A stretch of 47,063 nucleotides of DNA from Candidatus Nomurabacteria bacterium (GTDB lineage: Bacteria; Patescibacteriota; Minisyncoccia; Phycocordibacterales; UBA9973). The notes under the pieces are model-generated. The model had not been told where the DNA came from and searched no databases. It saw nothing but the letters and a program-made list of their open reading frames with translations. The DNA lies in the NCBI GenBank assembly GCA_943359475.1, contig CALRHK010000004.1:1-47063 (forward strand), read 5' to 3'. Below, piece by piece: positions 12,258-16,533 of this stretch. The position numbers were made by a program, and so were the translations under genes. The stretch's first letter is position 1. Each line of letters starts with the position of its first letter.

Positions 12258-12830
12258 TTATAACAAGGCAAGCGCTTCTGGTAAACTCACAACTCCGTCT
12301 TCAGCAGTAAAATGACCCTTGTTTTCTATAAGGAAAACTTTTGCATTTAACTTTTCTTCAAACGTGTGCTTATTTTCCTCTACATATTCATATGGTTCAT
12401 TGGTTGATAAGAAGACAGTAATTGCTGGACATACTTTTTTAATTGCCTCAAAATCAATCGGATTTTCTATCCAGGGTCTGCCAATATCCTCGGCGCCCTG
12501 CCCATCATATTCTTCAAGGTGAGCTAGATTAAACCACCCTGCAATAAAGAGTGCTCCGCCTACTACTTTTATATCATCGGGAAGTGTTGAGAGGTAGCGC
12601 ATGATCGTCTGACATCCGATTGAGTGACCAACAAAGTATGTATTTTCATCTGGCACTCCAACAAGAGACGCGAGGTGTGCTACCCATACTTCAATTTTTG
12701 GTTCAAGTGGGTTTGGCATTGCAGGACGTACTACCTCGTAGCCTTTCTTTTGCAATTCAGAGTCAAGCCACACAAGCAACGGCTCGTCTGGATTTCCACC
12801 CCATCCGTGTATAATAAATATCTTTTTCAT
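12258..12830 (-). CDS. RBBP9/YdeN-family alpha/beta hydrolase
   Basis: HGWGGNPDEPLLVWL, FVGHSIGCQTIMRY, NKGHFTAEDG. Confidence 0.88.
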   Translation of the reverse strand: MKKIFIIHGWGGNPDEPLLVWLDSELQKKGYEVVRPAMPNPLEPKIEVWVAHLASLVGVPDENTYFVGHSIGCQTIMRYLSTLPDDIKVVGGALFIAGWFNLAHLEEYDGQGAEDIGRPWIENPIDFEAIKKVCPAITVFLSTNEPYEYVEENKHTFEEKLNAKVFLIENKGHFTAEDGVVSLPEALALL

Positions 12831-12831
12831 A

Positions 12832-15800
12832 TTATTTCTCTATCTTAACAATAAACTTCACATCTTCGACAAGGATTTCATTGCCATCATTTTCAGTAAA
12901 TGAAATAGTTGAAACAAGAACTGTCTTTTTGATATCAGTTTCAAATTTTTCGACAAGCGCTTTTCCTGTCTCATTTGTGTCAACAAGAAGTGAGATGCTG
13001 TCTTTTGGAGTGAGTCCTGCCTCTTTGCGCATATCTTGCAGCGCGCGGATAAGTTCACGAACATTCCCCTCTTGCTTGAGTTCTGGTGTGATTTCTGTAT
13101 TGAGTTCAACTAATTCTGCAATCGTTTTATTTTCAACTACTTCTTTTACGTTCAGCTCATCTTTAATAAGATCGCCGTAATTTGTATCGAGGGAATATTC
13201 TTTAACGAAAATTTTGCTAAGTGGTTGCTTCACTGGAATATTTAATTTCTTTCTTTGCATATTCCCTGTAGTACAAATTTCTCGCACTATTCTCATATTC
13301 TCAAGAATGTGAGAATGTTCTTTTCCTGTTGTTTTTGGCCACTCTGAAAGATGTACTGATTCCTGATCAGTATCATTTTTTAGTTTCTGCCAAATATCTT
13401 CTCCCGCAAACGGCGCGAACGGTGCCATGATTTGTGCAACTGTTTTCATCACTGTATACAATGTCTTTTTTGCTTCTTCATCACCGTCTTTGATTCGGTC
13501 ACGAGAACGGCGAAGGTACCATGTCGAAAGGTCATCGATAAAGTCTCGAAGTGCTCGGACTGGTTCAAGAACCTTATACATATCCATTGAATTTGTAGTT
13601 TCAAGAACCAGTTCGTTCAATCGTGCAAGTATCCACTGATCAAGCACATTACTAGTTTCTAGCTTTTCACTATTTTTTTCCAATGATGTATCTCGATAGA
13701 GTTCATAGAATGAAAGTACGTTGTAAAACAAGTTGAAGATTTTGTTGTGAATTTCTGCGACAGTTTTCTCGTCGTAGTTTTTTGAATCGCCCGGCTGATT
13801 GACTGAGTACATCCAGAGACGAAGTGTGTCCACACCAAACTTATCCATTTGTTCCCATGGATTTACAATATTCCCGATAGACTTCGACATCTTCTTCCCT
13901 TCTTTATCAAGCAAGTGGCCAAGACAAATCACATTCTTATATGGTGTTCCCACTTCCATAAGGACACCGACAGCGAGAAGTGTATAGAACCATCCACGAG
14001 TTTGGTCAATTGCTTCTGAAATAAAATCAGCTGGGTATCCACGAGACGAGCTGAAGAGGCCATGCTTTGGATTAAAACCATTTTCTTTTTCAAATGGATA
14101 GTGGTCCTGCGCAAACGGCATTGCACCAGAATCAAACCACACATCCATCACTTCTTTCACACGACGAAATGCTTTGCCATCTTTCTCAAGAACTACGTCA
14201 TCAATATATGGTCGGTGTGGATCGAGCTCATAGTTTTCATTGTGAGGAAATGACACGAAAGCAACTTCTTTTACCTCTGCATTTTTAAAATAATGAAAAT
14301 CCTTTACATTTTTAATTGTTTCAAGCACGCCAGAGACAGAAAGGTGCCGGGCACCGGTTTCAATTAACCATGCTGGACCACCATGAGTTACGATTAGTAT
14401 TTTTTTATTTGCATATTTTTCTTCAACTTCAAACAGAAACTCCATCACACGACGACGTACATCGTTGTACGATTCGCCATCCTCGGGAGCTTTGTCAAAA
14501 TATTCTTTTGTTTTTGGGAAAACTGCATGATAGTCTTCCCATTTTTTGCCGTCATAAGTTGGACCAAGGTGCATCTCAGTCAAACGAATATCAGAGATCA
14601 CACTCTCCAAAGAGAGACCTAGTTCCTGCGCAATAATATTTGCGCTTTCTTTCGTACGTGAAAGTGGTGAATACAAGATGAGATCAATTTTCCCTTTCAG
14701 TGAACGCGCCGATGCCTTCAGCTCACTTACGCCTTTTTCGGTCAGTACACCATTCTCATTTGGATCATCAGCAATAATCCCCTCGAGATTCCCCTCAGTT
14801 TCTCCATGGCGCATCACAAAGTAAGTGTTCCCGGATTTCTTTGTGTATTTTTTGAGTGTCTCGTATGAATCAACAACTATTTTTTCTCCATCTTCTGCAA
14901 CCCAAATAGGAAGCGGTGTCCCCCAGTATCGCTCACGGGAGATAGCCCAGTCTTTTGCTTCTCGAATCCATTCGCCAAAACGCCCTTCTTTAATATGAGC
15001 TGGTTCCCAATTTATTTTTTCATTTTCTTTAATCAAATCCTTACGGAGTTTTGACATACCGATATACCACGAATCACGTGCGTAGTAGATAAGCGGAGTT
15101 TTACAACGCCAACAGTGTGGATAGGTATGTTCATACTTTTCTTTTTTAAACAAAAGCCCACGATGTGCTAGATCTTTGATAATATCTACTGCAACATCTT
15201 CACCTTTTACAAACTTCCCTTCAAGAAAATCTGTACCTGCTATAAAGTTTCCCGTCTCATCAACAAGATGAAACTTTGGTAACGTATTTTCTGTACCAAC
15301 AACAAAGTCATCTGCACCATACATTGGCGCAATATGTACCATACCCGTACCATCAGTCGTAGTAACAAAATCAGCTGAATATACTTTGTAGGCATTTTGT
15401 AATTTTGGTTTTTCTGTATCAGAGATAAGAGTACTCAAATATGGGTAGAGTGGTTCATACTGCATGCCAACCATTTCGCTCCCTTTGTGTGTTGCAATGA
15501 TTTCATACGGCTCAGTAACTACAGACAGTCTATCTTTTGCAAGGACGAGTATTTCTTCACCAATTTTTATTTCTACATATTCAACATCTTTCCCAACAGC
15601 AAGTGCAACATTTCCTGGAAGAGTCCATGGAGTCGTTGTCCAAGCTAAAAAGTAGGCTTTATCGAAACCTATGATTTTAAACTTTGCATACACTGACAAA
15701 TCTTTTACATCCTGATATCCTTGCGCAAGCTCGTGAGTAGCGAGACCCGTGCCACAACGAGCACAATATGGCACCACCTTGTAGTCTTTATAAAGTAAAT

Positions 15801-16314
15801 CTCTATCACTTACCCGCTTCACAATACTCCAAAGAGATTCAACGTAGTTTGCGTCAAATGTGTAGTAGGCATTTTCCTTGTCTACCCAGTAGCCAATACG
15901 ATCAGTAAATTTTTCCCATTCACCAATATACTCAAATACGCTGTCCTTACACTCCTTATTAAATTGAGCGACACCATATTGCTCAATTTCTTTTTTTGAC
16001 TGTAGTCCGAGCTTTTTTTCTATCTGAAGTTCTACAGGGAGACCGTGAGTATCCCACCCAGCACGACGACGTACATGAAACCCCTGCATTGTTTTGTACC
16101 GAGGAATAACATCTTTAAATGCACGTGCTTCGAGATGGTGTAATGCTGGTTTTGCATTTGCCGTTGGAGGTCCTTCATAAAAGACAAATTCCTTTTTGTC
16201 TTCATTTTTTGAAACTGATTTTTCAAAAATATTATTCTCTTTCCAAAATGCTAAAACACGCTCTTCACGAAGCGCTGCTGTACTTTTCCCCTTTTTTTGT
16301 TCTGTATTTTCCAT
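12832..16314 (-). CDS. ileS: Isoleucine--tRNA ligase with inserted histidine phosphatase domain
   Basis: 1160 aa; GWDTHGLPVE, WTTTPWTLPGN, DVWFDSGAMPFAQ, KKMSKSIGN; inserted FVMRHGETEGN...YSPLSRTKES...IVTHGGPAW at about aa 495-693. Confidence 0.95.
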   Translation of the reverse strand: MENTEQKKGKSTAALREERVLAFWKENNIFEKSVSKNEDKKEFVFYEGPPTANAKPALHHLEARAFKDVIPRYKTMQGFHVRRRAGWDTHGLPVELQIEKKLGLQSKKEIEQYGVAQFNKECKDSVFEYIGEWEKFTDRIGYWVDKENAYYTFDANYVESLWSIVKRVSDRDLLYKDYKVVPYCARCGTGLATHELAQGYQDVKDLSVYAKFKIIGFDKAYFLAWTTTPWTLPGNVALAVGKDVEYVEIKIGEEILVLAKDRLSVVTEPYEIIATHKGSEMVGMQYEPLYPYLSTLISDTEKPKLQNAYKVYSADFVTTTDGTGMVHIAPMYGADDFVVGTENTLPKFHLVDETGNFIAGTDFLEGKFVKGEDVAVDIIKDLAHRGLLFKKEKYEHTYPHCWRCKTPLIYYARDSWYIGMSKLRKDLIKENEKINWEPAHIKEGRFGEWIREAKDWAISRERYWGTPLPIWVAEDGEKIVVDSYETLKKYTKKSGNTYFVMRHGETEGNLEGIIADDPNENGVLTEKGVSELKASARSLKGKIDLILYSPLSRTKESANIIAQELGLSLESVISDIRLTEMHLGPTYDGKKWEDYHAVFPKTKEYFDKAPEDGESYNDVRRRVMEFLFEVEEKYANKKILIVTHGGPAWLIETGARHLSVSGVLETIKNVKDFHYFKNAEVKEVAFVSFPHNENYELDPHRPYIDDVVLEKDGKAFRRVKEVMDVWFDSGAMPFAQDHYPFEKENGFNPKHGLFSSSRGYPADFISEAIDQTRGWFYTLLAVGVLMEVGTPYKNVICLGHLLDKEGKKMSKSIGNIVNPWEQMDKFGVDTLRLWMYSVNQPGDSKNYDEKTVAEIHNKIFNLFYNVLSFYELYRDTSLEKNSEKLETSNVLDQWILARLNELVLETTNSMDMYKVLEPVRALRDFIDDLSTWYLRRSRDRIKDGDEEAKKTLYTVMKTVAQIMAPFAPFAGEDIWQKLKNDTDQESVHLSEWPKTTGKEHSHILENMRIVREICTTGNMQRKKLNIPVKQPLSKIFVKEYSLDTNYGDLIKDELNVKEVVENKTIAELVELNTEITPELKQEGNVRELIRALQDMRKEAGLTPKDSISLLVDTNETGKALVEKFETDIKKTVLVSTISFTENDGNEILVEDVKFIVKIEK

Positions 16315-16328
16315 AGTGTATATAAATT

Positions 16329-16380
16329 AAAAAGCTCGTCCTTGCACAACAATAACTTGTTGCAATGCAAGGACGAGCTT
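16329..16380 (-). terminator. T-box attenuator terminator
   Basis: AAGCTCGTCCTTGCA...TGCAAGGACGAGCTTTTT, about 15-bp stem plus inner CAACAA/TTGTTG, then T-tract. Confidence 0.92.
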
Positions 16381-16530
16381 CCTCGTGGTACCACCTTGTT
16401 TCTCCGCCAGAGGCGAACTTATTACCGCTGTATCGGGCATACCCGCTAGAGTCTACTTACCTTTTAGGCTTTCTTTCTAGAGCTCTGAGGTGATTGTATC
16501 CGCCACTCGCGGAATCCTCATCAACGCTAC
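16329..16530 (-). promoter_or_regulatory. T-box riboswitch (Ile specifier AUC) controlling ileS, very short Stem I
   Basis: Minus strand: stem UGAGG...AUACAAUCA/CCUCA with AUC at 16494-16492; pseudoknot-capable CGGGUAUGCCCGAUAC; stem III CGCCUCUGGCG; antiterminator AAGG-UGGUACC-ACGAG/CUCGU-CCUU (T-box bulge 16393-16387); competing terminator. Confidence 0.9.
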
Positions 16531-16533
16531 AGT

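Follow-up and report, generated by a model that had tools for sequence, protein, structure and literature searches.

An intact histidine phosphatase domain inserted in the isoleucyl-tRNA synthetase of a large clade of Patescibacteria

The isoleucyl-tRNA synthetase (IleRS) encoded in the window (the whole stretch of 47,063 nucleotides analysed here) contains a complete histidine phosphatase (HP) domain. Its sequence and structural model make it very probable that this domain is an active phosphatase that selection has retained within a bifunctional IleRS. The ileS product would then be a two-enzyme protein, in which a working IleRS2-type synthetase bears, looped out of its CP3 zinc ribbon, a folded, catalytically competent branch-1 HP. 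If so, an essential and ancient enzyme keeps an intact second enzyme across a minimal-genome clade that discards most dispensable genes. This implies either unrecognised phosphate chemistry connected with Ile and Val charging or a phosphatase that is carried along.

We found no description of an HP domain in IleRS or valyl-tRNA synthetase (ValRS) in the open literature; subscription literature and domain-architecture databases lay outside the scope of the search. That IleRS can carry an additional enzyme is already known as a kind, since the NCBIfam model NF040702 (ileS_w_GNAT) describes an IleRS with an acetyltransferase domain. The enzyme there is a different one, however, and the model stays far under its cut-off on the window protein; the HP version is new.

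Results

The synthetase is encoded by a gene of 1160 codons on the minus strand (ileS, 12832..16314), whose product passes the TIGR00392 ileS cut-off with 876 versus 621 bits. It is the only ileS copy that we found in the 648-kb genome; the remaining matches are other class I synthetases. The protein has the KMSKS motif (residues 808-812), the editing-domain motifs TTTPWTLPGN and DGTG..GADDF, and the signature ALHHLE (16129..16146, minus strand), a non-canonical A/GxHH form of HIGH. The A/GxHH motif has been described for IleRS2, where it is tied to mupirocin hyper-resistance, and ALHH is its rarer Ala form (PMC10485003). An AlphaFold model of the full-length protein (pLDDT 87.9, pTM 0.79) groups in Foldseek with the IleRS2 of Priestia. 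The synthetase body, the editing motifs and KMSKS are like those of IleRS2, the mupirocin-resistant type (Priestia megaterium 8c8v; Thermus 1ile). The known IleRS2 structures, in contrast, have a short CP3 loop without a phosphatase domain at the place where the window protein has its HP.

Comparison with uninserted IleRS places the inserted stretch at about residues 492-696 (14227..14841, minus strand), after RYWGTPLPIW...SYETLKKY and before LDPHRPYID...DVWFDSG. The sequence-only reading had reported about 200 extra residues at 14236-14832, and our boundaries lie close to these. From RYWG to DVWFDSG there are 65-75 residues in uninserted IleRS and about 260 in the window protein and 40-odd relatives. 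In Pfam the tRNA-synt_1 match is interrupted by His_Phos_1 (PF00300; residues 499-658; 14341..14820, minus strand; E=1.8e-30; 106.5 bits against a cut-off of 21.7), which is the split that had been predicted. Modelled alone by AlphaFold, the insert takes the HP alpha/beta fold with high scores (pLDDT 94.4, pTM 0.91), and PhoE, the phosphoserine phosphatase PspA and the glucosyl-3-phosphoglycerate phosphatase GpgP are among its top Foldseek matches. The domain match and the modelled fold together bear out the earlier claim of a complete HP domain.

Because CP3 of yeast IleRS is the region that follows RYWG, we place the insert in CP3, the zinc ribbon (PMC7955072). Among insert-bearing IleRS the pairs of Cys (knuckles) on either side of the insert are both present in 32 sequences, both absent in 35 and mixed in five. 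This co-occurrence (p about 1e-14, a value that ignores shared ancestry) suggests that CP3 folds around the looped-out insert. One locus (L056) seemed to hold a truncated insert, a candidate we rejected since the stretch in question is masked N.

The catalytic residues are intact, as claimed earlier, and all the HP hallmark motifs named at that time are present. The insert has the RHG motif, the two Arg, the proton-donor acid and the second His of branch-1 HPs. We take R502 to be the phosphate-binding Arg and H503 the nucleophile, from what is known of the superfamily (RHGETEGN; 14806..14811). Both are invariant in 83 of 83 IleRS inserts, and so are R553, the phosphate-pocket Arg (SPLSRT; 14656..14658), and H644, the second active-site His (THGG; 14383..14385). 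The expected proton donor, E580 (RLTEMHLG; 14575..14577; all four features on the minus strand), is Glu in 82 inserts and Asp in one. Outside the active site the 83 inserts are very divergent. Some loci of this set came from a His_Phos search and so are biased towards recognisable domains. A second set of 46 sequences was retrieved without use of the catalytic motifs and has five invariant insert columns (R502, H503, G528, R553 and H644), with E580 conserved in 45 of 46. By analogy with the superfamily, H503 would take the phosphoryl group to form a phospho-His intermediate, R502, R553 and H644 would hold the phosphate, and E580 would give a proton to the leaving group, resulting in hydrolysis of a phosphomonoester.

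Pairwise dN/dS could be computed for ten pairs; nine of them give 0.10-0.17 for the insert, and one (L024/L030) gives 0.31. Values for the synthetase body are similar (0.10-0.16). Judged from these ratios, the insert is under long-term purifying selection. Invariant catalytic residues and synthetase-like dN/dS, together with the model, argue for the earlier suggestion that the domain is probably active rather than filler.

One could argue instead that the domain serves as a structural or tRNA-binding insert, a phosphate-binding surface for which catalysis is irrelevant. Its position would suit such a role: the insert lies in CP3 and adjoins the CP2-CP3 linker (ARDWNVSRNRYWG), which precedes CP3 and lines the tRNA site in yeast IleRS (PMC7955072). 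Yet the nucleophile and the phosphate-pocket residues are kept together with the proton donor in 83 of 83 inserts, and an acid is superfluous for binding alone. We consider this explanation very unlikely.

The closest known relatives of the insert are branch-1 histidine phosphatases (PhoE 1h2e, PspA 4ij5, GpgP 4qih and CobC), with which it shares fold and catalytic residues. These enzymes are free-standing, whereas the HP studied here sits within a synthetase and reaches no curated HP equivalog cut-off. None of the curated HP functions suits it. Alpha-ribazole phosphatase CobC was rejected on this ground (80 versus 163 bits). The bifunctional RNase HI / acid phosphatase (PRK07238) is likewise an HP fused to an RNA-acting enzyme, but the fusion is end-to-end and with another partner, and the insert scores 75 bits where 326 are required. 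The insert could also be the organism's phosphoglycerate mutase, which belongs to the HP superfamily and whose dPGM model gives a weak match. The score for dPGM_arch stays well below the cut-off, though (73 versus 225 bits), and neither enolase nor PF01676 was found in the window's genome. Lower glycolysis thus appears to be absent, and without an enolase a 'missing phosphoglycerate mutase' is hardly to be expected; we regard this identity as highly improbable.

A survey of CPR IleRS had been proposed, and it revealed that the insertion is widespread. Among 74 genomes of the window's order, each at least 90% complete, 69 have PF00300 in a frame of more than 750 aa, that is, of synthetase size; the large frames that we read in the order are IleRS and a few ValRS. 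In one further genome (G300) a contig end truncates the IleRS match, which yet extends into the insert, and in another (G332) no IleRS was recovered. The insert is also carried by 45 other public genomes. An assembly chimera is refuted by the same architecture in 45 other loci and in at least 69 of the 74 order genomes. In a phylum-wide sample, His_Phos occurs in a frame of more than 700 aa in seven of seven genomes of the window's class and in about 9 of 100 outside it. The non-CPR IleRS that we compared have no His_Phos insert (their loop is 65-75 aa where measurable). As far as these sequences go, the HP insert is common to a large clade of minimal-genome bacteria and found in a minority of the wider phylum.

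Uninserted IleRS are encoded in the three remaining genomes of the 74 (G309, G199 and G329). The synthetase body of G309 is nested among insert-bearing IleRS, and at its C-terminal junction a scar (SLPQNENGEPDLHKPYID) remains, from which we conclude that the insert was lost; no PF00300 match was found in that genome. The loss means that the insert is dispensable to aminoacylation and, with no HP match left in G309, that the phosphatase function can be dispensed with as well.

ValRS carries an HP at the homologous place in several loci (L091, L092, L094, L095, L097, L108, L158, L160 and others). Two HPs stand in tandem in the IleRS of L133 and L134 and in the ValRS of L168. In a quick domain tree, which omitted the window row as a duplicate and in which many deep forks are weak, the IleRS inserts fall largely together (SH-aLRT 98) and apart from most free-standing HPs. 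The ValRS inserts fall elsewhere, and the second HP of L133 and L134 lies among them. In one further ValRS (L170) the second active-site His is replaced by Ser, the only such insert that we saw in an aminoacyl-tRNA synthetase; it is possibly a decaying copy.

The trees of insert and body disagree. In the body tree, where we ignored the drawn root and the placement of L191 (an absurd branch, probably from a wrong frame), the window IleRS groups with L049, L014 and L010. The window insert, however, is sister to the insert of L041 (100/98), and the body of L041 comes from a different IleRS lineage; the L049 insert is sister to that of L106 (100/99). Grouping the window insert with the L014 insert is rejected by an AU test on the 30-row insert tree (p 5e-4). 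This disagreement suggests that the insert has been exchanged between IleRS genes; we read it as swapping between IleRS lineages by recombination. The insert would thereby also mark the exchange of domains within essential genes.

Upstream of ileS lies a candidate T-box leader (16366..16533, minus strand), whose stem I is short and whose likely specifier is AUC (Ile). Its RF00230 score of 55.9 bits (E 9e-12) lies below the Rfam gathering score of 93 bits. The putative anti-terminator is AAGGTGGTACCACG, and a competing terminator hairpin, AAGCTCGTCCTTGCA...TGCAAGGACGAGCTTTTT, can be read from the sequence (16329..16380, minus strand). Of 40 relatives, 17 have the anti-terminator motif GGTGGNACC within 500 nt upstream of ileS, where the background is 0.005 per stretch. 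With a functional T-box, uncharged tRNA-Ile would increase the synthetase and, with it, the phosphatase. The insert would then be a candidate for a phosphatase under T-box control, in a phylum about whose regulation little is known.

Discussion

The HPs in ValRS, the tandem copies, the exchange between lineages, the T-box and the position of the insert as sole HP of its genome all go beyond the sequence-only reading. Our confidence concerns the activity and retention of the phosphatase, not its substrate. It is quite possible, if a little short of probable, that the phosphatase acts on something met at the synthetase. Candidate substrates would be damaged tRNA ends bearing a 3'-phosphate, phosphorylated nucleotides or phosphorylated compounds resembling amino acids. 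The preference of the HP for a single loop of IleRS and ValRS speaks for a connection with the two synthetases, and its coupling to aminoacylation is plausible.

The domain may also be a metabolic phosphatase without any tie to isoleucine or tRNA, for which IleRS provides expression and a scaffold only. Of the 74 genomes surveyed in the order, 21 (the window's genome among them) have a single PF00300 match, and it lies in a synthetase-sized frame, so that the insert is the sole HP domain found; this count also speaks for the active, retained phosphatase proposed above. By eye, we also recognised HP fusions to two other frames in the same phylum, one pyruvate kinase-like and one hydroxyacid dehydrogenase-like (L174, L152). 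Together with the loss in G309 and the existence of uninserted IleRS generally, these fusions point to a looser, metabolic role. Against this, the large-frame hosts that we read are nearly always IleRS or ValRS, with the HP in the same loop and sometimes in tandem, and two sister synthetases with one shared loop are not expected from random fusion. We think that such a passenger is the main alternative, but rather doubtful.

Another explanation is a detoxification or resistance module, in which the HP inactivates a phosphorylated inhibitor of IleRS or ValRS. A module of this kind would fit with the rapid divergence seen beyond the active site and with the exchange of inserts among lineages, and the A/GxHH motif of the window synthetase is the mupirocin hyper-resistance motif of other IleRS2 (PMC10485003). 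Inserts are also found, however, in canonical HxGH IleRS (L040, L041), which is why we rejected a link between the insert and A/GxHH, and in ValRS. We know of no phosphorylated natural inhibitor of either synthetase. This explanation is unlikely.

Returning to a phosphatase tied to its host enzyme, we tentatively suggest, without holding it to be the probable case, that the branched-chain class Ia synthetases of Patescibacteria are a chassis for swappable plug-in HPs, housed in the CP3 of IleRS and ValRS and coupling a phosphatase to aminoacylation. Such HPs might repair tRNA ends or clear away a phosphorylated by-product that is toxic; in genomes with a T-box ahead of ileS, they might be phosphatases under starvation control. 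The HP insert is a clean target for an assay comparing the wild type with H503A.

Three minor observations concern other domains and neighbours of these synthetases. A GNAT acetyltransferase is inserted in the IleRS at L169:2638-6990 (minus strand), which also has an HP, though at another place, just before the anticodon-binding domain. The IleRS at L167:1851-6074 has, in addition to an HP domain, a weak Ser_hydrolase match in the CP1/editing region (5e-4, just under the cut-off). Directly downstream of ileS in the window lies a gene for an RBBP9-like serine hydrolase (12258-12830, minus strand), and about a dozen relatives have similar genes in the vicinity of ileS.
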